Origin: Oceanobacillus iheyensis HTE831
GTDB taxonomy: Bacteria; Bacillota; Bacilli; Bacillales; Amphibacillaceae
Direction of reading: 5' to 3'
Length of the DNA: 64,000 nucleotides
NCBI RefSeq assembly: GCF_000011245.1
Contig: NC_004193.1
Location: 2,954,501 to 3,018,500, forward strand
How positions within the stretch are numbered: the stretch's first letter is position 1; the number at the start of each line of letters is the position of its first letter. The notes below the pieces were generated by a model. The model was not told the origin of the DNA. It made no database searches and worked only from the letters and a program-made list of their open reading frames with translations. The position numbers and the translations under genes are program-made. This document shows, in pieces, positions 44,198-64,000 of this stretch.

Positions 44198-44238
44198 AAA
44201 AACTACCAATCTACAATTTGTAGATTGGTAGTTTTTTT
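44196..44238. terminator. Bidirectional terminator
   Basis: AAAAAAACTACCAATCTACA and TGTAGATTGGTAGTTTTTTT form a long perfect stem with a 3-base loop. It separates the convergent LCP and tagO genes. Confidence 0.92.
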
Positions 44239-48400: not shown

Positions 48401-48796
48401 CAATTTTTCTTTAATCTCTACAAGATCTTCATGGCGATCTCCTTTTTCATATGGAAGAGATGCTGCTGCAAAAGGTTTTATTCTTAATTCTTCTGCTTCC
48501 TCTTCAGACTGTTTTTGTTGATTGTCAGTTGATTCGACAGCTTCTGTAGTTGTATTTTCTTGAACATTCTCTACTTCCTCTAGGACTGATTCATTAGAAA
48601 CTTCTTCATCTGATGTTTCCTGCTTTACATCATTGTTCTCAAGAATTTCACCTTGACCTTCTTCTACATTATCTTCCTTAGAAGTTACTTCCTGTGCCTT
48701 GTTTTCTATATCTGCCTCATTAGCATGAGTAATTGCTGGACTAAAGTGGAATAAGACAATAACACTAATCAAAAATATTTGAAAGTATTTCCTCAC
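45449..48796 (-). CDS. Giant autolysin: nine PG-binding-like repeats, SH3b, C-terminal glucosaminidase
   Basis: A 1115-residue secreted protein. The signal peptide ends THA (residue ~25), then an acidic linker runs to ~115. Nine ~70-residue repeats (~116-740) of the PG_binding_1 type alternate between form A (YFGGWTETRVKQFQ) and form B (TLFGNYMESQVKEFQ) as ABABABABA. Two SH3-like domains follow (~775-885, SVNLRTAPQ and NVNVRSAKS). The C-terminus is a LytD-like glucosaminidase, with the catalytic Glu in SHALLETGHGTSDLATG and YNMFGIGA. GTG start with GGAGG ten bases upstream. It is the paralogue of the next gene and probably cuts or remodels the wall. Confidence 0.88.
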   Translation of the reverse strand: MRKYFQIFLISVIVLFHFSPAITHANEADIENKAQEVTSKEDNVEEGQGEILENNDVKQETSDEEVSNESVLEEVENVQENTTTEAVESTDNQQKQSEEEAEELRIKPFAAASLPYEKGDRHEDLVEIKEKLNHIGFDGITETDYFGNWTETRVTQFQTYYQLSITGKVDQKTINKLDSVYNSPFQNGKRHEDTKAIKEKLNSIGYGPITVTTLFGNYMESQVKEFQRDQGLRVNGIADERTLAKLEELASTDVFELGDRHNAIITIKEKLNAIGFGGISETNYFGGWTETRVKQFQQYYGLSVDGKVGPATQETLDSVYNSPFQNGERHEDTKAIKEKLNSIGYGPITVTTLFGDYMESQVKEFQRDQGLRVNGIADGPTLAKLEELASTDVFELGDRHSAIILLKKKLNAVGFDRISETDYFGGWTETRVRQFQEYYNLNVTGKADEATQNKLDEVYNSPFQAGKRHEDTIELKEKLNRLGYGHITVSTLYGNFTKSQVKRFQREYGLVENGIADENTWIKLNEAYYNASFQLGDRHEDIIEIKKQLNAIGFGGISETNYYGGWTETRVKQFQKYYHLTVTGIVDHTTEEKISSVYNSPFQNGKRHDGTVEIKEKLNRIGFGYITVSTLYGSFTETQVRKFQSHYGLLENGIADEVTIAKLDNIFNHPLQLGNSHPDIITLKENLNHLGYDGIAISDYFGNWTETRLKQFQEDNGLPVSGIADEITLAAIEEAVENRWIIEYTPYPTTLTQALSKQMSVSPQTDAYRNLPAYVHSSYIDLTRTAAITGTSVNLRTAPQLISKVAFNVGNGTEIEFMEEVTGAIYSGSTKWYKIRYRGQVLYVHSSLASKNTLVGKTTANVNVRSAKSSSSHKYGVIPKGTTVNIIEEGSTWHEISYQTWRNATEQDVLQYLDPDNNDIFQHLVLSESVGVSAASLNNVLSGKGILSGKGQSFISASHQHGVNEVYLISHALLETGHGTSDLATGIEVGKNSSGNPVLVTPSNRSSLTNIRTSYNMFGIGAVDSNAREGGAIRAYNEGWFSPEQAIIGGAKFIGERYIHIGQDTLYKMRWNPANPATHQYATDIAWATKQVNNIQSIYDQLDNPMYKFDIPQYR
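46580..48451 (-). repeat. Nine ~210-bp coding repeats of the glucosaminidase autolysin
   Basis: Approximate limits of the repeat block. Repeats 1-5 closely match those of the amidase gene at the DNA level, differing only at scattered positions, and repeats 2 and 4 within this gene are nearly identical. Confidence 0.8.
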
Positions 48797-48913: not shown

Positions 48914-51730
48914 TTATCTTCTTTTTAAATTATAAGAATTCGCTATTGCATCTGCGGTTATTTGAGCCAAATATGTACGATAACTTGGATCTTTTAAAAG
49001 CATATTTTCAACAAAATTATCGATAAACATATATTCTAATAGAATAGAAGACATATTTGTATTTCTTAATACATTAAAGTTTGCTGTCTTCTTACCTCGA
49101 TCATTTACATTAATGTTATTAATTAAATAAGAATGAACATCAGATTGTCTTTGCTTTGTTTCATTTGAAACATTTCCATTATGGATATATGTTTCAAATC
49201 CATTTGCCGATCCATTAAAAGCGTTGGTATGGAAACTAACAAAATAATCTGCTCCCCAACGGTTTGCCATATTAGCTCTTTCCGTTAATTCTATAAAAGT
49301 ATCATCTGTTCTTGACATATTTACAAGAACTCCCTTATATTTCGATGATAAGAATTGTTCCGTCTGAAGCGCTATATCTAACACGACATCTTTTTCGTTA
49401 ATACCATAACCTTGCCCTCCAGGATCATTTCCTCCATGACCTGGGTCTAGAAATACTCTAATTACACTATCATCTAGTTTCTGAATCGTTTTTGTATCTG
49501 CTATACCACTAACCGGAAGATTATAATCTGATTGGAATTGCTTTAATCTTGTTTCTGTCCAATTTCCAAAATAATCGCTTATAGTGATACCATCATAACC
49601 TAGCGCATTAAGCATTTCTTTCATCTCAATTACGCGAGAATCTGATTTACCTTTTTGTAATGGACTATTATATATTTCATTAATCATATCCATAGTTACT
49701 TCATCAGCTATTCCATTGACCTTCAAGCCATAATACTCTTGAAACTTCTTCACTTGGGATTCTGTAAAACTACCATATAGGGTAGAAACAGTTATATAAC
49801 CGAAACCAATACGATTGAGTTTCTCTTTTAATTCAATGGTTCCGTCATGACGTTTACCATTTTGGTATGGACTATTATACACGTCCGATAGCTTTTGCTG
49901 TGTTTGTTCGTCAGCGGTACCAGTAACCGAAAGACCATAATATCGTTGGAATTGTTCGACACGAGTTTCCGTCCATTTTCCAAAGTAGTTCGTTTCAGTT
50001 ATACCACCAAATCCAATGGCATTAAGTTGCTTCTTAATCTCTATGATATCTTCATGACGGTCTCCCAGCTGGAAACCTGTTTTATAATAGACTTCATTCA
50101 ATTTTATCCAGGTATTTTCATCTGCTATTCCATTTACGACTAATCCAAAATCACGTTGGAATTCTTTTACTTGTGATTTTGTATAGTTGCCATATAAAGT
50201 AGATACTGTAATATGACCATAGCCTAGACGATTCAACTTTTCTTTTAGTTCTATCGTATCTTCGTGACGTTTCCCTGCTTGGAAAGGACTATTATAGACT
50301 TCATCCAGTTTATTTTGAGTAGCTTCATCTGCTTTTCCAGTCACATTTAGGTTATAATATTCCTGAAATTGTCGGACGCGAGTCTCTGTCCAGCCACCAA
50401 AATAATCCGTCTCGGATATACGATCGAAGCCAATCGCATTTAGCTTTTGTTTGATAGTAATAATTGCACTATGACGGTCTCCTAATTCAAATACATCGGT
50501 AGATGCCAATTCCTCCAGCTTCGCTAACGTTGGTGCATCCGCAATTCCATTCTCGCGTAATCCTTGATCACGCTGGAACTCTTTCACTTGGCTTTCCATG
50601 TAGTTGCCAAATAACGTCGTTACCGTGATTGGCCCATATCCAATGCTATTTAGCTTTTCTTTGATTGCTTTTGTATCTTCATGACGTTTGCCATTCTGGA
50701 ACGGACTATTGTAGACGCTATCTAGTGTTTCTTGTGTTGCTGGACCTACTTTTCCATCCACACTCAATCCATAATATTGCTGGAATTGTTTGACACGGGT
50801 CTCTGTCCAACCTCCAAAGTAATTGGTTTCAGATATACCACCAAAACCGATCGCATTTAGCTTTTCTTTGATAATAATAATTGCATTATGACGGTCTCCT
50901 AATTCAAATACATCGGTAGATGCCAATTCTTCCAGCTTCGCTAGCGTACGCTCATCCGCAATTCCATTCACGCGCAATCCTTGATCACGTTGGAACTCTT
51001 TCACTTGGCTTTCCATGTAATTGCCAAATAACGTTGTTACCGTAATCGGTCCATATCCGATACTATTCAGCTTTTCTTTAATCGCCTTTGTATCTTCATG
51101 GCGTTTGCCATTTTGGAAAGGGCTATTGTAAACACTATCTAATTTATTGATGGTTTTTTGATCTACTTTCCCTGTTACGGATAATTGGTAATATGTTTGG
51201 AACTGGGTCACACGCGTTTCCGTCCAATTACCGAAGTAATCCGTTTCTGTGATACCATCAAAACCAATATGATTTAATTTTTCTTTGATCTCTACAAGAT
51301 CCTCATGGCGATCTCCTTTTTCATATGGAATTGAAGCATCCACTGCAAAAGGTTCCACCTGCTCAGAATCAGATTTTCCTTCTTCCTCTTCCTCTCGAGG
51401 AGTTGTTTCTTGTTCTTCCGAAGAATTTTCATTAGAAATATGTTCTTCTTCAGAATCTTCCTCCTCTTTGTTATCTACTTCTTTATCTTGGGATGAAGAG
51501 TTTTCATTTTCTTGAGAAGATTCGTTATTATCTTCTTCTACTTCCTCTTGAAAATCATCTTTTTGAGGAACATCACTATCTTTATTTACCTCTTCACTAG
51601 ATTGATTTTCCTTTTGAGAAGTTTGCTCTTCTTCTCCATTACTCGCCGTATTGGCATGAGTAATTGCTGGACTAAAGTGAAACAAAACCATAATACTTAT
51701 CAATAATATTACGAAATTCTTCCTTATCAC
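48914..51730 (-). CDS. Giant autolysin: nine PG-binding-like repeats with C-terminal Amidase_3
   Basis: A 938-residue secreted protein. The signal peptide ends THA, a very acidic Glu/Ser/Asn-rich linker runs to ~135, and nine ABABABABA repeats follow (~136-760), nearly identical in the first half to those of the neighbouring glucosaminidase gene. The C-terminal N-acetylmuramoyl-L-alanine amidase carries the zinc His in FLDPGHGGNDPGG, Glu in IELTERANMANRWGA, His in FVSFHTNAFNG and the catalytic Glu in LLEYMFIDN. I chose GTG 51730 because it sits in the same leader context (GGAGGTGA-ACTAAA) as the paralogue; the GTG 12 bases upstream is inside the ribosome site. Confidence 0.88.
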   Translation of the reverse strand: MIRKNFVILLISIMVLFHFSPAITHANTASNGEEEQTSQKENQSSEEVNKDSDVPQKDDFQEEVEEDNNESSQENENSSSQDKEVDNKEEEDSEEEHISNENSSEEQETTPREEEEEGKSDSEQVEPFAVDASIPYEKGDRHEDLVEIKEKLNHIGFDGITETDYFGNWTETRVTQFQTYYQLSVTGKVDQKTINKLDSVYNSPFQNGKRHEDTKAIKEKLNSIGYGPITVTTLFGNYMESQVKEFQRDQGLRVNGIADERTLAKLEELASTDVFELGDRHNAIIIIKEKLNAIGFGGISETNYFGGWTETRVKQFQQYYGLSVDGKVGPATQETLDSVYNSPFQNGKRHEDTKAIKEKLNSIGYGPITVTTLFGNYMESQVKEFQRDQGLRENGIADAPTLAKLEELASTDVFELGDRHSAIITIKQKLNAIGFDRISETDYFGGWTETRVRQFQEYYNLNVTGKADEATQNKLDEVYNSPFQAGKRHEDTIELKEKLNRLGYGHITVSTLYGNYTKSQVKEFQRDFGLVVNGIADENTWIKLNEVYYKTGFQLGDRHEDIIEIKKQLNAIGFGGITETNYFGKWTETRVEQFQRYYGLSVTGTADEQTQQKLSDVYNSPYQNGKRHDGTIELKEKLNRIGFGYITVSTLYGSFTESQVKKFQEYYGLKVNGIADEVTMDMINEIYNSPLQKGKSDSRVIEMKEMLNALGYDGITISDYFGNWTETRLKQFQSDYNLPVSGIADTKTIQKLDDSVIRVFLDPGHGGNDPGGQGYGINEKDVVLDIALQTEQFLSSKYKGVLVNMSRTDDTFIELTERANMANRWGADYFVSFHTNAFNGSANGFETYIHNGNVSNETKQRQSDVHSYLINNINVNDRGKKTANFNVLRNTNMSSILLEYMFIDNFVENMLLKDPSYRTYLAQITADAIANSYNLKRR
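49455..51325 (-). repeat. Nine ~210-bp coding repeats of the amidase autolysin
   Basis: Approximate limits. The block is a direct-repeat partner of the block at 46580-48451; upstream leaders (ACTAATCTA-TATxGGT) are also shared, indicating duplication of the whole gene front. Confidence 0.8.
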
Positions 51731-51906
51731 TTTAGTTCTCACCTCCTTTATACTTATACTAACTTACTAATCTAGTATTGGTAAAGGTTTACAATAAATA
51801 AAATTACATCTTTGTATCTAATTTGTAATTAATATTTAAGATTATGTAATCACATTTTCGTGTATAGTACCGTATAAACCTTTATTTAATAAATGGAGTG
51901 AACATT

Positions 51907-52920
51907 ATGTATTTATGCTATATGAGAAACTATAAAAAACCCTTTGAATTCGTACGATTGCTAGCAAAAGCCAGTAAATATTATGGAATTGATATAATAT
52001 ACTGCCATCCTTCGCAAGTAGATACAACAGAAGGAAAGATTAGTGGAAAGATACTATTAAATAATCGTTGGGAGTCTATTACTGTTCCTATTCCTGAATA
52101 TATCGACTTAAATGCCTATTGTTATAAATATAAAGAAACGATCGATTACTTGAAAAAGAAAAGTACTCTATCATCACCAAGAAGATTTGGTTCTAAAGAA
52201 AGTGTATACAAAAAACTTATTGATGATGGACAATTTGCTAAAATCGTACCTCCTACACTATTAATTAATAGTGAAAATGATTTTCGCTTACTAATAGAAG
52301 ATTATAACAAAGTAATTTTGAAGCCAAAGAAAGGGCATAAAGGGCAAGGAATTTATAAGATAAATATTGTTGAAGATAATTATCATGTAACACAAGATTG
52401 TGAGGAAAAAATATTTAATCAATCTGAAATGGAATCCTTTCTTCAAAAACAGATTATACCTAATAACTACCTCGGACAGAAATATGTAGAGTCAACAACG
52501 AGTAATGGTGATCCGTTTGATTGTCGAATTCGTCTTGAAAAAAATGGCGAAGGTAAGTGGGAAGTAGTTGTTTACTTGGTTCGTATAGGTTCAGGTAATA
52601 AAGTCGTTTCAAATGTTTCACAAGGAGGAAGTGTGAACAAGCTGCTACCATTTATAAAATATAATTATCCTGATAACTGGAATGAAATTAAAGAACAAAT
52701 TGATTATATTGCAGAAAATTTACCTGAAAAAATCGAACAGCTATTTAATAAGAAAACCTCTTTTCTTGGGATTGACTTAGGAATTGATAAAGGAGGAAGT
52801 GTATACTTGTTTGAGGTGAATTCAGCGCCTGGTGTAGAATTCGGAGAGGGTGAACTAGCCAATATTAAATCCGATTATTATAACTATATATTAAAAAACA
52901 AAAAGCTTAGTAAGAATTAA
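51907..52920 (+). CDS. YheC/YheD-like ATP-grasp protein (1)
   Basis: A 337-residue protein starting at ATG 51907 (GGAG eight bases upstream; a GTG nine bases earlier is inside the site). It has a pre-ATP-grasp domain to ~90 (ASKYYGIDIIYCHPSQVD). The ATP-grasp domain follows, with VILKPKKGHKGQGIYKI as the glycine-rich loop, KYVESTTSNGDPFDCRIRLE, and the metal Asp/Glu/Asn in SFLGIDLGIDKGG and LFEVNSAPG. It is most like the YheC/YheD (spore-coat-associated) family of unknown ligases. It is divergent from the autolysins and convergent with a paralogue; a terminator separates the two. Confidence 0.82.
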   Translation: MYLCYMRNYKKPFEFVRLLAKASKYYGIDIIYCHPSQVDTTEGKISGKILLNNRWESITVPIPEYIDLNAYCYKYKETIDYLKKKSTLSSPRRFGSKESVYKKLIDDGQFAKIVPPTLLINSENDFRLLIEDYNKVILKPKKGHKGQGIYKINIVEDNYHVTQDCEEKIFNQSEMESFLQKQIIPNNYLGQKYVESTTSNGDPFDCRIRLEKNGEGKWEVVVYLVRIGSGNKVVSNVSQGGSVNKLLPFIKYNYPDNWNEIKEQIDYIAENLPEKIEQLFNKKTSFLGIDLGIDKGGSVYLFEVNSAPGVEFGEGELANIKSDYYNYILKNKKLSKN

Positions 52921-52922
52921 AC

Positions 52923-52960
52923 AAAAGCAGACTATCGAAAAATGTTCGACAGTCTGCTTT
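52923..52960. terminator. Bidirectional terminator
   Basis: AAAGCAGACT-TCGAA and TTCGA-AGTCTGCTTT form a long stem with one mismatched position, between the two convergent YheC/D-like genes. Confidence 0.8.
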
Positions 52961-53011
52961 ATTCATATGTGCTTTATGAATGGAAATTATTGAGTAGAGA
53001 GATCAAATAAA

Positions 53012-54220
53012 TTACTTATTCTTAAGTAACTTACCAACTTTACGAATGAAACTCGTCATTTTCCATGACGTGCTTGACTTTATTTGATTTATTTCTTTAT
53101 CTTTTTTCGCCTTTTCTAATCTCAATTGTTTTACTTCTTGTTGCAATTTATCAATTTGGCCACTGTTTTTGTTTTTGTTTTTGTTTCTGCCTTTGTCTGG
53201 AATATCCAGTAATTCTCTTATCGCATAGGAATAATAATTACTTCTGTGATAAGCTACTTCAGAAATTAAAGCAATTGTACTTGGACCATCATTCACTTCA
53301 AACAAGTATAATTTTCCGCTTCGATCAATTCCGATGTCCATTCCCATATACATAATATGTGTATTTCTCAATTCCTCCATCTTTTTAGGAATGGACTCTC
53401 CTACTTCTTTTAAGGAATCATAAATGTCAGACCAATTATCTTTAAAATTAGCTTTTAGAAAAGGTTTTGGATCACTTATCCCTCCTCCTTGGTTAACATT
53501 AGAAATAATGGATTGTCCAATTCCGATTCTTATATACATTTTTGCAACTGACCAATTCCCACTGCCATCTTTTTCGACATGAATTCTACAATCAAACGGA
53601 TCTCCTTGAGTCGTCCTTGATGATACATATTTTTGGAGGATATATCCTTTTCGGTGAATAGTACGATAATAAAATTCTTCAAGCTCTTGTAAATTCAAGG
53701 TTTTCATTTCTGTCTCAAAACCTATACGAAAAGTATCTTCATTCTCCATTTCCAAGAAGTGTACACCTTTTCCTCGAAGTCCTCTAATAGGTTTCAATAC
53801 TGTTTTTTTATAAACCTTTACATAGTTTAACAGTTCCTCAAATGACTTTATTTTTTGAGTTGGAATTACTAAATGAGAAAAATTACTATCTTCCTTTAAT
53901 ATGTCTTGTAATTTTTGTTTACTAAGAGTGTTCTCTCGATTATCTGAAAGAAATGTATTGGCTCTAAGATAATCCATAATCTCCTTATTTTTCTTTTTAA
54001 AGCAATATGGAGAAATATCAATAAATCTAGGTATCTTCGTTGATTTGGTTTTCCATTTACCATTATTCAATACCTTCCCGCGTACCGTACCAGAATCTAT
54101 GTTTACATCTTTTGGTCTTAAGTATATTAAATCTATATCATAGGATTTGGCAATCAGTGCTGTGATAGTTGCTAATTCTGTCGGCTGATTAAAGTTTGTC
54201 ATAAAACCAATTTCTTGCAT
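53012..54220 (-). CDS. YheC/YheD-like ATP-grasp protein (2) with coiled coil and SWK tail
   Basis: A 402-residue paralogue of the preceding gene, in the opposite orientation. The ATP-grasp residues are conserved: VLKPIRGLRGKGVHFLEM, KYVSSRTTQGDPFDCRIHVEK, YMGMDIGIDRSGK and LFEVNDGPS. After the enzyme a Lys/Asn-rich linker and a predicted coiled coil (KLQQEVKQLRLEKAKKDKE) lead to the tail SSTSWKMTSFIRKVGKLL. The same SWK-x-T tail occurs on three other ATP-grasp proteins in the array and is known from glycosyltransferases of surface polysaccharide loci. Its substrate is unknown. It precedes no other gene on its strand before the terminator. Confidence 0.82.
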   Translation of the reverse strand: MQEIGFMTNFNQPTELATITALIAKSYDIDLIYLRPKDVNIDSGTVRGKVLNNGKWKTKSTKIPRFIDISPYCFKKKNKEIMDYLRANTFLSDNRENTLSKQKLQDILKEDSNFSHLVIPTQKIKSFEELLNYVKVYKKTVLKPIRGLRGKGVHFLEMENEDTFRIGFETEMKTLNLQELEEFYYRTIHRKGYILQKYVSSRTTQGDPFDCRIHVEKDGSGNWSVAKMYIRIGIGQSIISNVNQGGGISDPKPFLKANFKDNWSDIYDSLKEVGESIPKKMEELRNTHIMYMGMDIGIDRSGKLYLFEVNDGPSTIALISEVAYHRSNYYSYAIRELLDIPDKGRNKNKNKNSGQIDKLQQEVKQLRLEKAKKDKEINQIKSSTSWKMTSFIRKVGKLLKNK

Positions 54221-54243
54221 GAATAAATCCCACTTTCCTATTC

Positions 54244-55689
54244 TTAGCTTATTATTCGGAAACCAACTTTTGTAGGTTTCCCAGAAAACTCTACTTCTTT
54301 ATCTTCAATGTGTTTTACGATCGATTTTCTTGATCCTTTTTGAACAAATTTCTTAAAATCTTCAACTGATTTCTGGTTTTCACTAATAAGATAAATCTCT
54401 ACTTCATTCTTCGTTATTTTCTTAGCATAACCATAAAGATTTCTTCTTAAAGCTTGTCTTCTAATATAAGTCATATACCCAACTTTGTTAAGTTGACCTG
54501 TTACTATATACTTCCTAGCATAAACGTCCTTTTTGGGTGTTTCTACAACCTTTAATTCTTCAACCGCCCAACTCTTTAAAGGTTCTAATAAGCTAAGATA
54601 ATCAAAATAAAATGGTGATCTGTATTTCCCTTTTGTTTCCGGGAAATAATAATCAATTATTGCTGCTGGTACATCCTTTGATTCGCCAATTAAAGGAAAT
54701 GGATGGAATCCAATTTCAGCAGTTGCGTTGATTTCAAGTACAACACCATTACTTGGATCGCTTGGATCTACAATTATATCAACACCACCATGAGGAATAG
54801 AAGGCAACGCCTTTAAAGCATCTACCGCTATTTGCCTAACAGATGGAGATAATTCATCAGTAGCTTCAATGGGATCACCACCAGAAGAAAGATTACTTTT
54901 CTCTCTTAAAATTACTTGTTCCCCTTTTTCAGGCACACTATTTAAATCATACCCGACTCTTTCAAGCATAAATGTTATCTCATAATCTGCCTCGATTGGT
55001 TTAGGAGATAAATACGGGTTCTTCTTTCTCTCTTCATTCTTTAGATCAATTAGTTTCTGCACGGTGTGCTTTCCATCTCCAATAATATTGGCCGGCTTTC
55101 TGTTCGTAGCACCAATCACTTGATCCCCGACTACATAAATACGGTACTCTTCACCTGGATAATGTTTTTCAACCAAATATTCCTTGTGGGAAAATTTAGA
55201 CCTTAATTCTTTCAATATACCCTTTAATTCTTCTTCTGAATTAATATTTGTATAAACACCTTTACCCATACTTCCTTTGAGAGGTTTTATAATTACTGGA
55301 TAATCTATTTCATTGGCATAGTTTATGATATCATTATCTTCCTCTAATACTTTTCCTAGGGGAATTGGTACATTGCTTTTCTGCAGATATGATTTCGTTT
55401 CTTCCTTATCCTGACAAATTCTAACTGCTTTATTAGTTACTTTATCGCCTCTAGAACGGAAAAAATAATGCGTTTTACTACCATCACTTAATGAATAAAA
55501 CTTTCCATGTGTACTACTATTCAAGCGATCTAACTTACATTTACTTGTTTCATCATTATACCAAGTTAGGTTTAATCCTCTTCTCCAACCTTCTAATGCA
55601 ACTAAATATGAACATAACTTAAATCCTGTTATATCTTTTACTACTCTTTTATTTAAGTGTGGAAGAAGTACCACTTCTTGAGATTTCAT
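54244..55689 (-). CDS. CphA-like ATP-grasp ligase with pseudo-acylphosphatase domain (1)
   Basis: A 481-residue protein. The shared N-terminal domain (SYLVALEGWRRGLNLTWYND, THYFFRSRGDKV) is followed by a cyanophycin-synthetase-like ATP-grasp domain (YPVIIKPLKGSMGKGVYTNI, RKPANIIGDGKHTVQKLID, NLSSGGDPIEATDEL, metal site EINATAEIGFHP). A C-terminal acylphosphatase-like domain (YIVTGQLNKVGYMTYIRRQA) completes it. The catalytic Arg and Asn of acylphosphatase are replaced by Met and Lys. It lacks the SWK tail of its sisters. ATG 55689 has GAGGAG seven bases upstream; a much longer in-frame extension overlaps the opposite-strand gene and is spurious. Confidence 0.83.
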   Translation of the reverse strand: MKSQEVVLLPHLNKRVVKDITGFKLCSYLVALEGWRRGLNLTWYNDETSKCKLDRLNSSTHGKFYSLSDGSKTHYFFRSRGDKVTNKAVRICQDKEETKSYLQKSNVPIPLGKVLEEDNDIINYANEIDYPVIIKPLKGSMGKGVYTNINSEEELKGILKELRSKFSHKEYLVEKHYPGEEYRIYVVGDQVIGATNRKPANIIGDGKHTVQKLIDLKNEERKKNPYLSPKPIEADYEITFMLERVGYDLNSVPEKGEQVILREKSNLSSGGDPIEATDELSPSVRQIAVDALKALPSIPHGGVDIIVDPSDPSNGVVLEINATAEIGFHPFPLIGESKDVPAAIIDYYFPETKGKYRSPFYFDYLSLLEPLKSWAVEELKVVETPKKDVYARKYIVTGQLNKVGYMTYIRRQALRRNLYGYAKKITKNEVEIYLISENQKSVEDFKKFVQKGSRKSIVKHIEDKEVEFSGKPTKVGFRIIS

Positions 55690-55847
55690 TATCATTCTCC
55701 TCAAATTCTTATAATTGAAACATTCTATACTATATATTATATTTAAATACATTATAAATAAAAAGCTATAACTACAAAATGGAATGAATAAGCAACTATG
55801 GTATAATATTATCGGGGAATAATACCTGTAAGTAAAGGGGAATAGAT

Positions 55848-57512
55848 ATGGTAGACAATCGCTTTTTAGAAAGTTTAACTCATGATATACCTGAAAAAGC
55901 AAATAATTATATGCTTAGCACATATAGTATAATTTTAGAAGCCTGGCGTAGAGGATTAGATATTAACATACGTATATTAAAAGAAAAATCTGGATCGATA
56001 GAACCTTACTACTCAATTAGTAATGGTGATAAAGTTCATCATTTTAGTGCTACAAGAGGTGATTTGGTTTCCAAGGAAGCTAAGGAGCTTACTAAAAATA
56101 AAGTAACGACCAAACAAATTCTAAATAAATATAAGGTTCCAACTCCTGAAGGCAAAGAATTTGAGGAAGAAGCTACTACAGAAGAAATTATTAGTTATGC
56201 TACAGCAATCGATTATCCTTTAGTAGTAAAGCCTGTATCTGGTACAGGTGGAAAAGGTGTTATTGCAGGAATTCAAAACGAAGAAGAGTTAGTAGAAGCG
56301 TTAGAATACGTGCGAGAAAAGTTAAATTCACCTAGAATTATTCTTGAAAAGTATTTTGAAGGTGAAGATTATCGGATTTATGTGATAGATGGACAAGTCA
56401 TTGCAGCATTAAAGAGGATAAAAGCTAATATTATAGGAAACGGAAATGACACTATAAAGAACTTAATAGATAAAAAGAATAAGTATCGTTCTCAGCTCCC
56501 ATCATTGACAAATCGGCCAATTAAAGTAGATGATGAAACAAAAACGCTTATCCGAAGAGCAGGATATACAATGGATTCTGTTTTACCTGATGGTGAATTA
56601 CTGTATATTAAAACGAAGAATAATGTATCGGCCGGCGGGGACTCTATTGATATAACAGAACAACTATCTGAAAGTATTAAACAAATCGCAATTGATGCAA
56701 CTAATTGTTTTGGATCACTTCCCCATTGTGGCTTAGATTTGATGGTTGATGAAGCTAATGACAAGGCAGTTATTATAGAAATCAATTCACGAGCCCATAT
56801 TACACAGCATCTATTTCCAATGGAAGGCCAAGCTAGGGATATCCCTGGAAGTTTAATTGATTTTTACTTTCCTGAGACCAAAAATTATAATCGCTTAGAT
56901 TCTTTTAAAATGTTTATTGATTTCGAATATATTTATGATTCCTGTATAAGTAGAGAAGCTGCTGAAATACGCATACCAAAGAAACCAGAAGGTCCAATCT
57001 TATTAACACGTTATTTAATAAACGGCGTAAAATTAACAGATAAATTTGCAGCTCGAGTTAAACGATTAGCTTATAATACTCAAGTTAGTGGTTATATAAA
57101 ACCTTTAAATAATGGTGATATCTCTATTATCGTTGGAGGCAATGAAAATAAGATTGAACAATTTAAAAAGAGCTTAAATAAATATCTACCTAAATTCAGT
57201 AAAAAATATGAAATTACAGCTAAGAAACGTACTACCCCTATACCTCACGGATTTCATATACATGATAATAAAGCTCAGGATTCTAATAATGCAGTATCGG
57301 CTTCTACAAATGAATATATGAAGAAATATAGTAATCTTCAATCTGATTATCAACAACTTATAAGGAAAGTTGCTGAATATGAAAAAAGAGAGAGATTATT
57401 AGAAATAACTCAAAAACAAAATAAGCAATTGAAGAAAAGGCTTAAATTAATGGAAAATAGTACTTCTTGGAAAATCACTAAACCAATTAGGAAATTAACA
57501 CGAAAAAAATAA
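55848..57512 (+). CDS. CphA-like ATP-grasp ligase with pseudo-acylphosphatase domain and SWK tail (2)
   Basis: A 554-residue member of the same family, the only one on the plus strand. N-terminal domain: IILEAWRRGLDINI and HHFSATRGDLV. ATP-grasp: YPLVVKPVSGTGGKGVIAGI, KRIKANIIGNGNDTIKNLID, NNVSAGGDSIDITEQL and EINSRAHITQHLF. The acylphosphatase-like domain (NGVKLTDKFAARVKRLAYNT) lacks the catalytic Arg and Asn. A coiled-coil stretch (~510-540) ends in STSWKITKPIRKLTRKK. It is the most divergent of the four. AAAGGGG precedes ATG; a terminator follows. Confidence 0.83.
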   Translation: MVDNRFLESLTHDIPEKANNYMLSTYSIILEAWRRGLDINIRILKEKSGSIEPYYSISNGDKVHHFSATRGDLVSKEAKELTKNKVTTKQILNKYKVPTPEGKEFEEEATTEEIISYATAIDYPLVVKPVSGTGGKGVIAGIQNEEELVEALEYVREKLNSPRIILEKYFEGEDYRIYVIDGQVIAALKRIKANIIGNGNDTIKNLIDKKNKYRSQLPSLTNRPIKVDDETKTLIRRAGYTMDSVLPDGELLYIKTKNNVSAGGDSIDITEQLSESIKQIAIDATNCFGSLPHCGLDLMVDEANDKAVIIEINSRAHITQHLFPMEGQARDIPGSLIDFYFPETKNYNRLDSFKMFIDFEYIYDSCISREAAEIRIPKKPEGPILLTRYLINGVKLTDKFAARVKRLAYNTQVSGYIKPLNNGDISIIVGGNENKIEQFKKSLNKYLPKFSKKYEITAKKRTTPIPHGFHIHDNKAQDSNNAVSASTNEYMKKYSNLQSDYQQLIRKVAEYEKRERLLEITQKQNKQLKKRLKLMENSTSWKITKPIRKLTRKK

Positions 57513-57528
57513 TTAGCCTCGCTTACCT

Positions 57529-57572
57529 AAAAAAGTCCGAACCTCCCACTTAGGGTGATTCAGGACTTTTTT
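57529..57572. terminator. Bidirectional terminator
   Basis: AAAAAAGTCC and GGACTTTTTT bracket a loop with further partial pairing (ACCTCCCACT/AGGGTGATT). It lies between the convergent ligase and CapA genes. Confidence 0.75.
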
Positions 57573-57574
57573 AA

Positions 57575-58606
57575 TTATCTTACTTCTAACTCTGGCATCC
57601 ATTTTGTTAATCGATTATTCAATTCACTAAATACTTCTAAACTATCAAATGTATCGTGTATAGTTTTAATATAAGGATTTTTTTCAATATACTTATTGAA
57701 ATGATGCATTTGATAATTTTCTTTTTTACTTGCTGCTACATATGTCAAATCGATTTTAGGGTTTGTAATAGTAATCTTGCTGTCCGAATTCTTTTCAATA
57801 TCTATTGATAATGCTCCTCCAATTTGACGATAGAGGCCTTTTTGGCCAGAGTAAAAATTTCCTAAAGAATAAATAACAAAGGTTTTCTTTCCACGTGAAT
57901 TAGTAATCCACTCAGCAGGTTGCAATACATGTGGATGATGCCCAAGAATAATATCCGCTCCAGCGTCAGACAATGAAGAAGCAATATCGACTTGTGCTGA
58001 ACCCGGTATAAGTGCATACTCTCTTCCAAAGTGAGTAGCAACAACTACAACATCTGGATTCTCTTCTTTTTTTAAACGTTCTATCTCTCTTCTAATACCT
58101 GCTGTTGATCCGTTTACAATTCGATTCAATAAATACTCTTTCTTTTTTGGTGGATTCTTACCTAATGTTACAGCAGTGTACGATAGCACAGCAATTTTGA
58201 TACCATTTTTTTCAACAATCCGGAATTTCTGCTGATCTTTTTTTGATTTATGTGATCCAACGTAATCTAATCCTATACTTTCTAAGTTACTAATTGATTT
58301 CAACACGCCTTCTTCGCCATAATCCAGACTGTGATTATTTGAATTAGTAACTATATTGGTACCAAATTCTTGGAGATTTTCAGCTAATTCTATCGGATTA
58401 TTAAATTCTGGGAAAGAAGACAGACCAAGCTCTTCTCCCGCTACTATTGATTCTAGATTAACAATTGATACGTCGCCATTACCAATCAACTTTTGTGCAG
58501 GAGCCATCTTGTCTTTAAAATCATATTTACCGTTCTTTTTACTAATGTCGTATATTCTGGAATGTAATAATACATCACCAGTAGCTACAAGTTTAACCTT
58601 CGACAT
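57575..58606 (-). CDS. capA: CapA/PgsA-type poly-gamma-glutamate capsule protein
   Basis: A 343-residue calcineurin-like phosphoesterase-fold protein: VATGDVLLHSRIYD, SIVNLESIVAG, VTNSNNHSLDYGEEG, VVVATHFGREYALIP and DIILGHHPHVLQPAEW are the conserved metal-site motifs of the CapA family. In B. subtilis/anthracis CapA/PgsA works with the CapB/CapC ligase and exporter; no CapB or CapC homologue is present here. It has no obvious membrane anchor. It is the only non-ligase gene of the array and lies 20 bases after an ATP-grasp gene on the same strand, so a shared transcript is likely. Confidence 0.85.
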   Translation of the reverse strand: MSKVKLVATGDVLLHSRIYDISKKNGKYDFKDKMAPAQKLIGNGDVSIVNLESIVAGEELGLSSFPEFNNPIELAENLQEFGTNIVTNSNNHSLDYGEEGVLKSISNLESIGLDYVGSHKSKKDQQKFRIVEKNGIKIAVLSYTAVTLGKNPPKKKEYLLNRIVNGSTAGIRREIERLKKEENPDVVVVATHFGREYALIPGSAQVDIASSLSDAGADIILGHHPHVLQPAEWITNSRGKKTFVIYSLGNFYSGQKGLYRQIGGALSIDIEKNSDSKITITNPKIDLTYVAASKKENYQMHHFNKYIEKNPYIKTIHDTFDSLEVFSELNNRLTKWMPELEVR

Positions 58607-58626
58607 TGTAACACCTCCAAATCCCT

Positions 58627-60279
58627 TTATTTATTTTTTGTCTTTATTAGTCCTCCCAGCTTTCTTACAGGTTCCGTATACTTCCAAGAGCTACTTCTTA
58701 AAATATGTTTTAAGTCTTTATCAGCTCGGTTTTTTAACTTCCTCATACGTTGCAAATCTCTGTCCATCTTACGTAAAGCATGTTGTACAGATCGTACATT
58801 ATTTGTATTATACTGTTCAGAAATTTCGAACCCAACTGTTATTGGATCTTCGTATACTTCCTCTTTGATTTTAGAAATACTTGATCCTTGTGGATACCCT
58901 TGTATGATATCTTTAAAACCTTCAACAGTTTTCTTATCGGTACTAGCGACAACTATTTCAATCTCATCGAATACAATACTTTTAACGTAACCATGTAAAT
59001 TATGTTGTATGGCTTGTTGCTTCAGCCATTTATGGAAGTTATATCTTTGTACATTCCCTTTTACAATATATTGTTTCGCATACAGTTCTCCTATTGGTGC
59101 CGGAGCTACCTCCACTTCTAAAGCAGCTCTATTTTCAAGAGGTTCTAGCAAGGTAATTAAATCAAAATATACTTTTGATTTTCTCGTGTCTACTTGTCCT
59201 TTTGTTTCCGGGAAATAATAATCAACGATTGCTTTAGGAATATCTCTTGCTTTTCCTTCTATTGGATATAGAGCACCACCAATTTGTGCTGTAGGATTTA
59301 ATTCTATAACCACAGCCGCACCTTTTAAATCTCCGCGATCATTTACAATAATGTCTACTCCCCCGTGTGGAAAGTCTGGGACAGCTTTCAAAGCATCAAT
59401 TGCAATTTTTTTGTACTCTTCAGGAAGGCTGTCAGTTACATCTACTGGATCCCCACCAGAAGATACATTTGTCTTCTCACGTAGATAAATAACCTTTCCT
59501 TTATCCGGAACACTCTGTAGACTATATCCTGCCTCTTCAATAAATTCTAAGATTTCTACATCCATATGAATAAGACAGCTGTTGAGCCGAGCATTCTGTT
59601 TTCGTACATTATTCTTCATACTGATTAATTCTTCTATTGTATGTTCCCCATCCCCAATAATATTGGCGGGTACGCGATTATAAGCTGCAACTACTTCATC
59701 ACCAACAACATATACACGATATTCCTTACCACTTACATATTGTTCTACAACGACTTCTTTATAATCTAACTCCGTTCTTACATAGTGTAATGCTTTTATT
59801 AATTGCTCTTCATTTTTTATATTTGTTACTACACCGTTCCCAAGACTGGCATTGGTTGGTTTAAGGACTAGAGGAAACCCTAGGGTCTTACTATATTCAA
59901 TAATTTCTTCATTCGTACTTTCCGGCTCAAATCCTTTTCCTAATGGAATAGGTACACCAGCTTTTTCCATATAGATTTTCGTATCATCTTTCTCAGAACC
60001 TATATCAACAGCTTCATTAGAAACAAGGTCTCCACGTGTTCGAAAGAAGTAATGGGTTTGTTCTTCAGAGGAAAGTGAAAATAATCTTCCAGGTGGATTC
60101 ACTCCGAATATAATCATATCTTGAAAATGCTCAGAGTCTTTTGTATACCACTTTAATTTTAGTCCTCTTCTCCAGCCTTCCAATGCTACTGCAAAAGCAT
60201 CAAGTCTTGTTTTTCTTGCATTTCTTGTTATTTCATTTGTTAAATGAGGAAGACTAATTCCTAATGGTCTCTCTTTCAT
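58627..60279 (-). CDS. CphA-like ATP-grasp ligase with pseudo-acylphosphatase domain and SWK tail (3)
   Basis: A 550-residue protein. Shared N-terminal domain (AVALEGWRRGLKLKWYTK, THYFFRTRGDLVSNEAVDIG). ATP-grasp: FPLVLKPTNASLGNGVVTNI, NRVPANIIGDGEHTIEELIS, NVSSGGDPVDVTDSL, FPHGGVDIIVND and ELNPTAQIGGALYPIEGKA. The acylphosphatase-like domain (YIVKGNVQRYNFHKWLKQQA) has His and Ser in place of the catalytic Arg and Asn. The tail is SSSWKYTEPVRKLGGLI. It lies 20 bases upstream of capA and 22 bases downstream of another ligase, so an operon running from the window's right edge to capA is likely. Confidence 0.85.
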   Translation of the reverse strand: MKERPLGISLPHLTNEITRNARKTRLDAFAVALEGWRRGLKLKWYTKDSEHFQDMIIFGVNPPGRLFSLSSEEQTHYFFRTRGDLVSNEAVDIGSEKDDTKIYMEKAGVPIPLGKGFEPESTNEEIIEYSKTLGFPLVLKPTNASLGNGVVTNIKNEEQLIKALHYVRTELDYKEVVVEQYVSGKEYRVYVVGDEVVAAYNRVPANIIGDGEHTIEELISMKNNVRKQNARLNSCLIHMDVEILEFIEEAGYSLQSVPDKGKVIYLREKTNVSSGGDPVDVTDSLPEEYKKIAIDALKAVPDFPHGGVDIIVNDRGDLKGAAVVIELNPTAQIGGALYPIEGKARDIPKAIVDYYFPETKGQVDTRKSKVYFDLITLLEPLENRAALEVEVAPAPIGELYAKQYIVKGNVQRYNFHKWLKQQAIQHNLHGYVKSIVFDEIEIVVASTDKKTVEGFKDIIQGYPQGSSISKIKEEVYEDPITVGFEISEQYNTNNVRSVQHALRKMDRDLQRMRKLKNRADKDLKHILRSSSWKYTEPVRKLGGLIKTKNK

Positions 60280-60301
60280 TCTTTATTCCTCCTATTTTTC
60301 C

Positions 60302-61921
60302 TTACTTCTTCAATTTCTTAAACATGGAGCCGACTGCTCGTACTGGCGTCGTTGCTTTCCAAGAGAAGCTTTCATAATACTTCCTACGCTCTACTTCTGC
60401 TTTCTTTAGTGCTCTTTCTGTTACTTCTAACTCTTGCTTATACATCTTTAATTCTTCCAGTTGTGTTTTTAAATCTGTCTTTATTTCAAATCCGACTTTT
60501 ATAGGTTCATCGTAATTCTCTTCACTAACTTCCATTACTTGTGCTCTTTCTTCGTCTTCCCAGAAAGCATGTTTGAAGTCATCCACCATTTCGGGGTCTG
60601 CTCCTCCAACAACTACTTCTAAGTCTCCATTATCCATCTTCATAATATAACCGTGGAGAAAACGCTCAAACGCTTGTTTTCTCAAACCTCGGTGATAACC
60701 TAGCTCTTGTACATTCCCAGTAACAATATATTTTTTCATATAAATTTTCTCTTGCGGACAAGGAGTTACTGTTGTAACAACCGCATCTCTATTTTGAAGT
60801 GGATCAAGAACATCATGAAAATCAAAATAGGTATTTGTTTTCTTCTTGTCTGATATAGTTTCTGGAAAGTAATAATCGATTATCGCATTTGGAATATCGC
60901 GTGACTTTCCTTGAATAGGATAAAGCAATCCTCCTAATTGCGAGGTTGGATTTAGCTCAATAATGTATGACTCATTCGTATCAGGATCACAAATCATATC
61001 TACGGCACCATGAGCAAGTCCTGGTACAGCTTGAACCGCCTTTACAGCATAGTCTTTTACATGCTGAGGAAGTTCATCAAAGACATCAATCGGATCACCG
61101 CCTAAAGAAATATTACCTTTTGAATTTAGGTATACCTGTTCTCCATTTTCTGGTACTGACTCTAAGGTATACCCTTGTCTTCCAATATAATTAATACTTT
61201 CATCATCAGCCTTTATTAAACAACTAACCAATCTTGGATTCAGTTTACGTTCGTTGTTCTTAATATCGATTAATGCACGTACAGTATTTACGCCATCTCC
61301 AATAATATTTGGTGGCATACGGTGCATAGCAGCTACAGCTTTATCACCAACAACATACAGTCTGTAATCTTTCCCTGGAATAAATTGCTCTAAGATAATA
61401 TCTTGATAACCTAATTCATTTCGTAAGTAGTCTAATGAATACTCTAGTTCACTAGAGCTTGTGATATTAGAAATTACCCCTCTTCCAAAGCTACCATCAG
61501 TTGGTTTGATTACAATTGGATAACCTACCTGTCCAGCATACTCAATAATCTCTTGATTCGTTATCTCTTTTTTAAATTGCTTTCCATCCGGAACACGTAC
61601 CCCATTCTCAGATAGTATCTTTTTTGTTCTTTCTTTATCTTTACCAATATCTACTGCATCATTAGAAACTTTATCTCCTCGAGTACGGAAGAAGTAATGT
61701 GTGTTTTGCTTAGAACTTAATGAAAATAATTGTCCCGGTCTATCCACAAACCATGTCCTCATTTCACTAAATTTCTCCGAATCTTTAACATGCCATCTTA
61801 ATTTAAGCCCTCTTCTCCAACCTTCAAGGGCTATTACATAAGAATCAAGTAAATTTCCGTGTGCATCTGCAACTATGTCTTCAGAAAGGTGTGATAGCCA
61901 TTCTGCATTATTCTCATTCAT
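60302..61921 (-). CDS. CphA-like ATP-grasp ligase with pseudo-acylphosphatase domain and SWK tail (4)
   Basis: A 539-residue protein. Shared N-terminal domain (VIALEGWRRGLKLRWHVK, THYFFRTRGDKVSNDAVDIG). ATP-grasp: YPIVIKPTDGSFGRGVISNI, HRMPPNIIGDGVNTVRALID, NISLGGDPIDVFDEL, LAHGAVDMICDPDTN and ELNPTSQLGGLLYPIQGKS. The acylphosphatase-like domain (YIVTGNVQELGYHRGLRKQA) keeps the VQ-x-x-GY scaffold but has His for Arg and Lys for Asn. The tail is FSWKATTPVRAVGSMFKKL. It resembles gene (3) closely, suggesting recent duplication. It lies 18 bases downstream of the TupA-like gene. Confidence 0.85.
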   Translation of the reverse strand: MNENNAEWLSHLSEDIVADAHGNLLDSYVIALEGWRRGLKLRWHVKDSEKFSEMRTWFVDRPGQLFSLSSKQNTHYFFRTRGDKVSNDAVDIGKDKERTKKILSENGVRVPDGKQFKKEITNQEIIEYAGQVGYPIVIKPTDGSFGRGVISNITSSSELEYSLDYLRNELGYQDIILEQFIPGKDYRLYVVGDKAVAAMHRMPPNIIGDGVNTVRALIDIKNNERKLNPRLVSCLIKADDESINYIGRQGYTLESVPENGEQVYLNSKGNISLGGDPIDVFDELPQHVKDYAVKAVQAVPGLAHGAVDMICDPDTNESYIIELNPTSQLGGLLYPIQGKSRDIPNAIIDYYFPETISDKKKTNTYFDFHDVLDPLQNRDAVVTTVTPCPQEKIYMKKYIVTGNVQELGYHRGLRKQAFERFLHGYIMKMDNGDLEVVVGGADPEMVDDFKHAFWEDEERAQVMEVSEENYDEPIKVGFEIKTDLKTQLEELKMYKQELEVTERALKKAEVERRKYYESFSWKATTPVRAVGSMFKKLKK

Positions 61922-61939
61922 TTGTTATCCTCCTAAAAC

Positions 61940-63349
61940 CTATCCTACACTATCATTATTTGCTTCTTGTTTTATTTTTTTATATTCTTCAAATTGCTTT
62001 CCATTTATTAAATCATGTTCGAGCTTACCTTGTGCTTCTACAAAGTAATCCCCCAGCAATTCATCCGTTTCGTCATCAAACTCATCATAGTTCCCTGGTT
62101 TTGGTGTGAATTCTCCAAATACTAATCCATCCTCAGATTTGAGAAAATCAATACGAATAAAAGGAGAAGGGATACGCGAACTAATTGTTGCGGCTAATTC
62201 CATCTCATCATTCGTTACACCTAAACCTTCAAACAAACTATTATTATACTTTCCAGTAAACACTCTGTTCCCTTCAGCGTCCCACCAGCAATATTTCGAT
62301 TCTGGTGTACGGATTATTTCAAGTACTAACCCTACTTGTCCATAAAAACAATAAAATTTTATATCTCTAGCCGGTGTCTTATCATTATTATCCTCTAATA
62401 TTAATTCTTCTATTACCCATTGATCTTTTTCTACTCTCTTCTCTACTATGTCCTTTTCCATGCGGCTTAACAGTAAATCCCAATTGGATAGTATTTCTCC
62501 ATTTTTCACGTTTATTATATCATTAATTTCATTAACAATATAAACACCTCTTCCACCTGCCCCATTTACTGGTTTAATTACGATATTGGCTTTTTGAGGA
62601 ATTTGTTTATACGTGTAGGACTCTACACTTAACCAAGGTATTCGAACTTGTTGAGATTCCATAAAACGATAAGCTATTTTCTTGTCATCTAAGACCATTT
62701 CAGGAAGTTCACCAGTTATTTGATACTGCCTCATTCGATTCGTTAAACTTGCTCGATAGGATGCCACATGCTTCAATGAAAAATCATCATCTGAAAATGC
62801 TGATCGAATCATAAATTCAGGTGTTTTTTCTTTTAGAACTTTAAATAATTTTTGGTATATATGTTGCTTGTATTCTTGTGGTTCTGAACTAAATATCCTA
62901 GCAATCGATTGTAATAAAAAGTTAAAATTCGCCTCGGCTATTCTATGTTGGTCAATATATTGATTTATCAGCTCAATAATTTCACCATTATCTTTTTTGT
63001 TTTTTGCATATCTCCAAATACTTTCATAATCAAATTCCTGTACTTGCATACGAAGTCGATCTGTTTCTTCTTTTAATGTTGATAACTTAAGGTGGTATGT
63101 CATTATTTCTTCTTCTAAATGCTCGATATATACATCCTTTTCCTTGCTAGAAGAAGCTAACTTTCGCAGTCTTGCGGTTTTCTTCATTGTGTTACTTTCT
63201 ATGATTTGTTGAATTAACTTTTCATGTTTTTTAATTTCTACTTTCGTCTTATCAATTTTAGCTTCTGTTTCTATAAGTTGATCTAATTTTTCGGAATAAT
63301 CTCTTCCTGCAATATTACTTTCTTTATCTGCTTCATTTATTTGAGTCAT
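61940..63349 (-). CDS. TupA-like ATP-grasp protein with N-terminal coiled coil
   Basis: About 469 residues from ATG 63349 (GGGAGG ten bases upstream). Residues ~10-120 form a long coiled coil. The middle is a helical region. The C-terminal half is an ATP-grasp domain: NIVIKPVNGAGGRGVYIVNE, WVIEELI, DIKFYCFYGQVGLVLEIIR, PSPFIRIDFLKSEDGLVFGEF and TPKPGNYDEF. The FYCF...RIDF...GE-T pattern resembles the TupA-like family, whose founder is needed for teichuronopeptide in alkaliphilic Bacillus. It overlaps the upstream gene by 17 bases. The substrate is unknown. Confidence 0.7.
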   Translation of the reverse strand: MTQINEADKESNIAGRDYSEKLDQLIETEAKIDKTKVEIKKHEKLIQQIIESNTMKKTARLRKLASSSKEKDVYIEHLEEEIMTYHLKLSTLKEETDRLRMQVQEFDYESIWRYAKNKKDNGEIIELINQYIDQHRIAEANFNFLLQSIARIFSSEPQEYKQHIYQKLFKVLKEKTPEFMIRSAFSDDDFSLKHVASYRASLTNRMRQYQITGELPEMVLDDKKIAYRFMESQQVRIPWLSVESYTYKQIPQKANIVIKPVNGAGGRGVYIVNEINDIINVKNGEILSNWDLLLSRMEKDIVEKRVEKDQWVIEELILEDNNDKTPARDIKFYCFYGQVGLVLEIIRTPESKYCWWDAEGNRVFTGKYNNSLFEGLGVTNDEMELAATISSRIPSPFIRIDFLKSEDGLVFGEFTPKPGNYDEFDDETDELLGDYFVEAQGKLEHDLINGKQFEEYKKIKQEANNDSVG

Positions 63350-63995
63350 ACTGTACTGACCTCCCGTCCGATCGTAACACCCAATCACTTATATTAGGTG
63401 TATTACGATTATTCCCACACTCCCAATTCACATGTGATAGTTGAATATACCTCAATGCATTTGCTTGCTTTTCGCTTAATTGTTCGCGGATATGTTGATT
63501 TAACGGCATCCATTTTGTAGTACATTTTGTATATCTCTGAATACGTTGTGCACATTTTCTTAAATCATAGGTGGAATCTTTGCTATTAGGTACTTCATTG
63601 ACAACAACTCTTGTTACTTTTGTACTTAATTCAGGAACGTAAGTTTGTCTTTCCTGGAATACTAACGGATTGTATACAACAGTTAGGTCACTATAAATTT
63701 TTTCTCCATAAACTAACATCGCTACATAATTACCATCTATCATTTTCCTATAATTAGTATGGATGTTCTTCTTTAAAATTAGGTTATACTTGCCCATTTG
63801 AATTAAGCCAACGGTCAATCCTTGTTCTTTAAATTGTTCCAACTGTTTGTAGATAAAATCATCTGAAATTCGAAAATCAGCTACAAGTACAATATCTACT
63901 ATATGTTTAGCCTCTTTCAATCGATTTGGTCTCATTGGTCGCGGTACAGGAAAGAACCTTTCTTCTGCGTTATAAGGTAGATAATAATTACTCAT
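63333..63995 (-). CDS. Glycosyltransferase-associated domain protein (possibly partial)
   Basis: A 220-residue frame. IVDIVLVADFRISDDFIYKQLEQF and LTVGLIQMGKYNLILKK resemble the central (non-GT-A) module of large surface-polysaccharide glycosyltransferases, which reads DVVxVSDFR. TKWMPLNQHIREQL fits the same module. The ATG at 63995 is five bases from the window edge and the frame is open upstream, so the true start may lie outside. Its stop overlaps the TupA-like gene, suggesting one transcript. The function is only inferred. Confidence 0.55.
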   Translation of the reverse strand: MSNYYLPYNAEERFFPVPRPMRPNRLKEAKHIVDIVLVADFRISDDFIYKQLEQFKEQGLTVGLIQMGKYNLILKKNIHTNYRKMIDGNYVAMLVYGEKIYSDLTVVYNPLVFQERQTYVPELSTKVTRVVVNEVPNSKDSTYDLRKCAQRIQRYTKCTTKWMPLNQHIREQLSEKQANALRYIQLSHVNWECGNNRNTPNISDWVLRSDGRSVQYDSNK

Positions 63996-64000
63996 CTTAT

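Follow-up and report, generated by a model that had tools for sequence, protein, structure and literature searches.

Seven ATP-grasp ligases of Oceanobacillus iheyensis as the probable peptide-building half of a teichuronopeptide-type wall-polymer locus

The polymer known as teichuronopeptide (TUP) consists of polyglucuronate and poly-gamma-L-glutamate, and it is among the closest described counterparts of the system considered here, an array of seven ATP-grasp ligase genes and a CapA gene between positions 51,907 and 63,995 of a 64,000-nucleotide stretch of the chromosome of the salt- and alkali-tolerant Oceanobacillus iheyensis HTE831 (the window; NC_004193.1, positions 2,954,501 to 3,018,500), itself part of a 3,630,528-base single-contig genome. 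Published passages describe TUP as an acidic polypeptide covalently attached to polyglucuronic acid (PMC5938343), and passages of a second paper give the polyglutamate of Bacillus halodurans TUP as L only, report no pgs or cap operon in that species, call its poly-gamma-L-glutamate (L-PGA) system unidentified and suggest an ATP-grasp L-PGA synthetase, observing also that ATP-grasp ligases generally phosphorylate the donor carboxyl (PMC3815933). The relevant part of a 2004 review notes a tupA homologue in O. iheyensis, OB2920, and contains one ambiguous sentence on a polyglutamate gene cluster of B. halodurans C-125 (PMC8153356). As far as such passages go, TUP and the present system have in common the TupA family, a setting in alkaliphilic Bacillaceae and, probably, a uronic-acid polymer with an acidic peptide; however, the same passages tie tupA alone to TUP, mentioning neither an exporter nor an array of CphA-like and YheCD ligases with CapA. 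No description of a CphA-like array with TupA was found in the literature titles, abstract openings and passages covered. Part of the ligase idea may already be in print in the work of Iyer et al. in 2009 on amidoligases, the abstract of which reportedly mentions teichuronopeptides and capsular polymers.

Other described systems resemble parts of the array. According to passages of PMC11800379, the TupA-like domain of Campylobacter jejuni Cj1438 forms an amide on the C6 carboxylate of glucuronic acid (GlcA); this too is a TupA-like ATP-grasp enzyme from a glycan locus with GlcA, but it is fused to a glycosyltransferase and makes small amides (serinol), whereas O. iheyensis TupA is a separate protein followed by a ligase array. 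Cyanophycin synthetase (CphA1) shares with the four CphA-like proteins (Cph1 to Cph4) the fold of its ATP-grasp G domain and the carboxylate-activating residues, but these proteins lack its Mur-ligase M domain, having instead a degenerate acylphosphatase and, in most copies, a C-terminal tail, and they are encoded in a wall-glycan locus. PgsBCA/CapBCA, finally, shares with the array a PGA_cap protein and probably an acidic amide polymer as product, but its ligases are Mur-like rather than of the ATP-grasp type. A standard poly-gamma-glutamate capsule was rejected for the present locus because no PgsB or PgsC is encoded there and its CapA has no anchor.

The reading to be argued here, which may be held with fairly good confidence, is that the seven ligases form the peptide-building half of a TUP-type wall-polymer locus. 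Its first support is the setting. The array forms the distal end of a locus for a wall glycan that contains uronic acid and leaves the cell by an ABC (ATP-binding cassette) transporter, since the same-strand run continues past base 64,000 with glycosyltransferases, an exporter, UDP-glucose dehydrogenase and GalU (Table 1). From the GT4 gene bounded by 73029 down to CapA (57575) the genes form a one-strand run with small gaps, and the genes for a glucuronic-acid backbone and for export (UDP-glucose dehydrogenase, GalU, glycosyltransferases, ABC-2 permease and ATPase) are all adjacent. The initial annotation, made from the window alone, had proposed synthesis or decoration of an extracellular polymer by the ligases, and because the array belongs to a locus of this kind that proposal is better supported than a reader of the sequence could see. 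It had also placed CapA at the organising centre, and this is not supported: TupA, Cph1, Cph2 and CapA continue a run that enters from outside the window, and CapA, free or fused, was found in 26 of the 51 loci with at least 8 kb downstream of TupA.

The second support is the recurrence of the arrangement among relatives. Sixty-two Cph loci (of which L053 and L065 overlap) came from the best 80 of 125 Cph matches in a scan of named genomes, so that the frequency of Cph outside such loci cannot be read from them. TupA lies directly upstream of the first Cph gene in 56 of the 62 (gap -83 to +123 bp); of the remaining six, L056 stops at a contig edge, L066 lies on a short contig, L065 is the latter half of a locus counted before, and L057, L060 and L064 have another exporter context. 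An ABC ATPase, a permease and a glycosyltransferase of like kind accompany the array in 46 of the 47 loci with at least 7 kb upstream, and UDP-glucose dehydrogenase lies near 8 of 20 relative loci, that enzyme or a WecC-like one near 17. (The ATPase has two nucleotide-binding domains in one chain, and of 54 such frames in relatives most measure 503-577 aa.) Where at least 8 kb is available downstream of TupA, the loci contain at least two Cph genes without exception (51/51) and at least three in 45, with YheCD in 22 and relatives of the wall amidase-like protein in 29. The fixed part is TupA with the first two Cph genes; the distal part varies.

Two larger samples, which overlap in some genomes (the coordinates of G085/G447 and of G047/G278 are identical), point the same way. 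In the family sample of 146 genomes Cph occurs in 34, with TupA adjoining in 30, the exceptions being G065 and three genomes with ATP-grasp-only matches (G009, G012, G123); in G013, G031 and G114, which lack Cph, the TupA frames measure 789-866 aa. In the order sample of 397 genomes, counted after leaving out TupA matches weaker than E 1e-40 (some in frames above 400 aa) and CapA-fused or other frames above 520 aa, Cph occurs in 21 and a strong TupA match in a 400-520 aa frame in 20; all 20 of the latter have Cph, adjacent within 250 bp in 19 and split over contigs in G452, and G156 has Cph without such a TupA. A chance cluster, the outcome that a neighbourhood survey was meant to expose, is ruled out by this adjacency and by the exporter and glycosyltransferase context. 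TupA can nevertheless occur without the array: one locus of G171 (L146, G171:C166, from a family sample of 41) reads exporter, two glycosyltransferases and TupA, then GT2 and nucleotide-sugar-like genes, with no Cph, and no Cph was seen in the 3.7-kb loci fetched around TupA forms of about 300 aa. There is also a second locus type with the Cph ligase family (L057, L060, L064, L147), in which Cph stands beside exporter-like genes with other neighbours and no TupA; the Cph proteins of the first three form a small clade of their own.

Open frames and Pfam searches, by which the genes of the window were assigned, bear out the count of two YheC/D-like, four CphA-like and one TupA-like ATP-grasp protein together with CapA. 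TupA itself points to TUP biosynthesis (several of its relatives carry the source label 'teichuronopeptide biosynthesis'), and with the homologue noted in part of the 2004 review (PMC8153356) this speaks against the original view of a system apart from known ones. The protein had no sequence match among solved structures up to E 0.1. Its length of 482 aa is close to the 489 aa of B. halodurans TupA. It is proposed here to act as a priming amidoligase on a uronate carboxylate, by analogy with Cj1438.

For the Cph proteins the label 'CphA-like' is sound as regards the ATP-grasp domain and fails beyond it. Their best NCBIfam matches are cyanophycin synthetase models, which score 204-230 bits over that domain against cut-offs of 850-877, and no Mur-ligase Pfam match was found in any of the four at E 0.1; on both grounds a cyanophycin locus was rejected. 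The intact ATP/metal site claimed at the outset is, on the other hand, confirmed: Lys96, Lys139, Asp308, Glu322 and Asn324 (Cph1 numbering) show no variation across 46 aligned family members, the four window copies included, E-x-N is kept in both YheCD proteins and TupA has E-F-T (the last two by eye). The carboxylate-activating residues of cyanophycin synthetase are likewise conserved in the family, but the window copies differ from CphA at His267 and Arg458. The catalytic Arg and Asn of the acylphosphatase motif are both absent from all four, which makes acylphosphatase activity doubtful; across the 46 members both are present in 5, Arg alone in 3, Asn alone in 15 and neither in 23. An acylphosphatase is elsewhere fused ahead of YheCD, in L010:13397-14956 (scanned) and, by similar sequence, L013:13398-14957, and by eye these fusions retain the Arg.

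In a quick tree of 214 Cph rows, 55 of the 56 genes in first position after TupA share a clade with Cph1 (support 86), and 42 of the 56 in second position share one with Cph2 (support 100), a single origin being less sure for the former because of its lower support; Cph3 and Cph4 belong to accessory clades. The site of CphA His267 is Phe or Tyr in 13 of 13 Cph1 proteins, Leu in 12 of 12 Cph2 proteins and Gly, Met, Leu, Ala or Gln in 21 rows of accessory copies. For the most part, the ligases at the first two places are orthologues tied to their position in relatives as well.

Many of the ligases also share a short tail, [ST]x[ST][WFM][RK]x[TSA]x[PFLAS][ILVF]R, the distribution of which in the window is given in Table 1. 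The motif is terminal in 105 of 218 Cph open reading frames (ORFs) and 6 of 36 YheCD-class ORFs (relative position 0.94-0.97), and in TupA-class ORFs it occurs in 10 of 61, nine times near the N-terminus and once at 0.31. It was met once among 424 unassigned ORFs (in an ATPgrasp_ST protein), and not at all in glycosyltransferase, ABC, CapA or amidase-class ORFs or in 4,400 shuffled Cph sequences. In a model of Cph1 it forms the last helix, after a helix of 35 residues, and by eye the N-terminus of O. iheyensis TupA has a coiled-coil-like stretch with a degenerate copy. The tail may be a ligase tether.

Put together, these features suggest the following scheme. Assembly would be cytoplasmic, on a uronic-acid glycan carried by a lipid, where TupA would activate a uronate carboxylate as acyl-phosphate and couple to it the amine of a first amino acid, much as the TupA-like domain of Cj1438 couples an amine to GlcA. 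Cph1, Cph2, the accessory Cph proteins and YheCD could then add further residues, in all likelihood Glu or Asp, at the C-terminal carboxylate of the chain, the coiled-coil and SxSWKxTxPhR tail they share holding the ligases together at the site of glycan assembly. The ABC transporter would export the finished glycopeptide, and fixation of the product would give a strongly anionic wall.

The alternative that survives best, though it is to be thought unlikely, is that the ligases only decorate the glycan, adding one amino acid or amine to each uronate, so that the product would be an amidated polysaccharide without peptide chains. Passages on the Campylobacter enzyme, which makes its amide on GlcA with small amines (PMC11800379), are what one would expect in that case, as are the Cph-free TupA of G171 and the 300-aa TupA forms described above. 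Set against this, however, CphA1, the closest solved relative of the Cph proteins, lengthens a peptide C-terminus; the minimum of two and usual three or more Cph genes per locus suits a chain better; and so do the racemases of some loci and the Mur-ligase-type and Ddl-like ligases of L030.

It is distinctly improbable that the polyglutamate comes from PgsBC encoded elsewhere, with the ligases of the locus doing no more than joining it to the glycan or trimming it. The initial statement that CapB and CapC are lacking, and that this is neither a standard capsule nor a cyanophycin locus, is right for the locus, yet the genome does have a pgsB gene (over cut-off) at G000:C1:220743-224265 (L079:5744-9266), with what look by eye like pgsC and gamma-glutamyltransferase genes behind it and no PGA_cap match alongside. 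This single PgsB over cut-off, at 220 kb, is about 0.8 Mb from the array if the contig is circular. PgsB is moreover enriched among array genomes of the family sample: 17 of its 146 genomes have PgsB over cut-off, and 10 of these belong to the 30 with the array (p 0.0002). Of the 397 order genomes 69 have it, including 10 of the 20 with the array. Against that, it is below cut-off or absent in 20 of those 30 and 10 of those 20 genomes (the samples sharing at least two), which means that as a rule the array can do without PgsBC, and passages of PMC3815933 report that the pgs operon is absent from TUP-making B. halodurans. In O. iheyensis both array and PgsBC could contribute. That the array serves a cytosolic storage or spore polymer unrelated to the surface (a cyanophycin-like reserve or a YheCD-type spore function) is hardly credible: the ligases do look cytosolic, with no strongly hydrophobic stretch, they resemble CphA, one relative (L055) has a peptidase-S51 protein and YheC/D of B. 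subtilis is known from spores, but the locus carries an exporter, gene order joins the ligases to it and to glycosyltransferases in 46 of 47 loci, the Cph proteins have no Mur-ligase domain, and the locus is present in the non-spore-formers Salinicoccus and Lacicoccus.

If the ligases do build a peptide, the part played by CapA needs separate comment. Its PGA_cap domain begins at residue 5, its highest 19-residue hydropathy mean is 0.98, and no membrane anchor is seen by eye in 17 aligned CapA proteins of such loci. Fusions in six relatives, CapA-TupA in L039, L044, L059 and L068 and CapA-ATPgrasp_ST in L058 and L067, suggest that it works in the ligase pathway. The nearest solved fold is that of the lasso-peptide epimerase MslH, at only 20% identity: of the catalytic residues of MslH, His88, Asp91 and His295 align with CapA H92, D95 and H226, which are invariant in the 17, and Asp11 corresponds to D11 by motif only, such residues being found also in metallophosphoesterases. 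As for the calcium ligands of MslH, Asn87 and His259 correspond to N91 and H192, but His261 aligns with a glycine (G194) and Glu44 falls outside the alignment.

A more specific version of the peptide reading, to be offered tentatively and as somewhat unlikely, is that the product is not a homopolymer but an ordered hetero-peptide, TupA, Cph1 and Cph2 adding defined residues in fixed order to each uronate and the accessory Cph and YheCD proteins adding species-specific ones, with cytosolic CapA inverting the C-terminal residue as MslH does, so that the next ligase would meet a D-residue. It is prompted by the position-specific clades with their clade-specific residue at the CphA His267 site, by the CapA fusions and the likeness to MslH, and by the finding that loci with Asp/Glu racemases mostly lack CapA (it is present in 1 of these 7 and in 24 of the other 43; at p 0.098 the difference is not significant). 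The L-only polyglutamate reported in passages on B. halodurans TUP and the missing calcium ligand tell against it.

The variable distal genes of relatives include those racemases (L008, L023, L030, L031, L032, L045, L047; 7 of 62 loci is a lower bound, since the genes were first chosen by eye from unassigned ORFs and then confirmed), Mur-ligase-type proteins (L008, L030), the Ddl-like ligase (L030), a peptidase S51 (L055) and ATPgrasp_ST proteins (L026, L055). Proteins of 567-589 aa with a weak GH127 match stand at the distal array end in L039:19391-21094 and L044:14401-16170; proteins of similar length are present in L049, L056, L058, L059 and L061, and one in L055 (13470-15191) has no match.

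Table 1 Features of the O. iheyensis locus in window coordinates, continued beyond base 64,000 (C1, genome contig).
Feature	Position	Strand	Remarks
Secreted wall protein	48914..51742	-	Peptidoglycan-binding-like repeats and C-terminal amidase-like domain (domains by eye)
YheCD1	51898..52920	+	PF14398 ATP-grasp ligase, no tail
Terminator-like hairpin, 16-pair stem	52924..52960	-	Between convergent ends of YheCD1 and YheCD2
YheCD2	53012..54220	-	PF14398 ATP-grasp ligase, C-terminal STSWK tail
Cph4	54244..55692	-	Accessory CphA-like ligase; degenerate acylphosphatase, no tail; start a guess
Cph3	55848..57512	+	Accessory CphA-like ligase; degenerate acylphosphatase, C-terminal tail
CapA/PGA_cap	57575..58606	-	PF09587, 242 bits; without N-terminal membrane anchor
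Cph2	58627..60279	-	ATP-grasp, degenerate acylphosphatase and tail; architecture as Cph1
Cph1	60302..61921	-	CphA-type ATP-grasp (about 20-357), degenerate acylphosphatase (397-480), C-terminal helix, SxSWK tail
TupA	61940..63388	-	PF14305 TupA-like ATP-grasp (residues 213-450), 327 bits (cut-off 25); sole PF14305 match of genome
GT2 glycosyltransferase, C-terminal end	63333..64000	-	Full gene 725 aa, 63333-65510, genome C1:3017833-3020010
Second GT2	65470-67437	-	
ABC ATPase	67460-69025	-	Two nucleotide-binding domains in one chain; genome C1:3021960-3023525
ABC-2 permease, single	69041-69868	-	
GT2	69959-70783	-	
GT4	70725-71885	-	
GT4	71908-73029	-	
UDP-glucose dehydrogenase	74311-75633	-	
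GalU	75642-76526	-	
WecC-like UDP-sugar dehydrogenase	76685-78004	+	
TagO-like (by eye)	83923-85014		Genome C1:3038423-3039514

Some details of Table 1 call for comment. The glycosyltransferase-like fragment first noted at 63333-63995 is indeed a glycosyltransferase, but not a fragment, being the end of a GT2 gene cut by the window edge; this and the second large GT2 have long N-terminal extensions. Cph3 and YheCD1 lie opposite to the main run, and Cph4 and YheCD2 are back on its strand. The listed Cph4 frame, 54244-55902 with a TTG start, appears over-extended, and an ATG near 55690 is more likely, in which case there need be no overlap with the divergent gene at 55848; for YheCD1 the likelier start is an ATG at about 51908, with a GGAG-like stretch 5' of it. 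The hairpin is possibly the 3' end of the minus-strand unit; it is one of 6 sites in a terminator scan (5.3 expected from shuffling), the other five having stems of 5-6 pairs. A promoter scan gave 73 sites vs 54.6 expected and no usable start. Beside the array, the secreted wall protein and a second long secreted protein (45449-48796) have, by eye, very similar peptidoglycan-binding-like repeats and differing C-terminal wall-hydrolase-like domains, and are likely to be a duplicated pair. The whole locus is bracketed by two TagO-like transferases (by eye), that of Table 1 and one at 44237-45316.

TUP is a classic explanation of how alkaliphilic Bacillus tolerates alkaline surroundings, and the array, a candidate for the missing maker of its peptide, supplies definite candidate genes for that synthesis in a non-pathogen whose genome is finished. 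It points, more widely, to wall glycopeptides as a family, made with exchangeable ligase modules, among Bacillota with names suggestive of saline or alkaline habitats, and it offers a possible role for cytosolic CapA proteins. Should the hetero-peptide version prove true, there would be a second, peptidoglycan-like wall glycopeptide, in which ATP-grasp rather than Mur ligases build the stem peptides on uronic acid.

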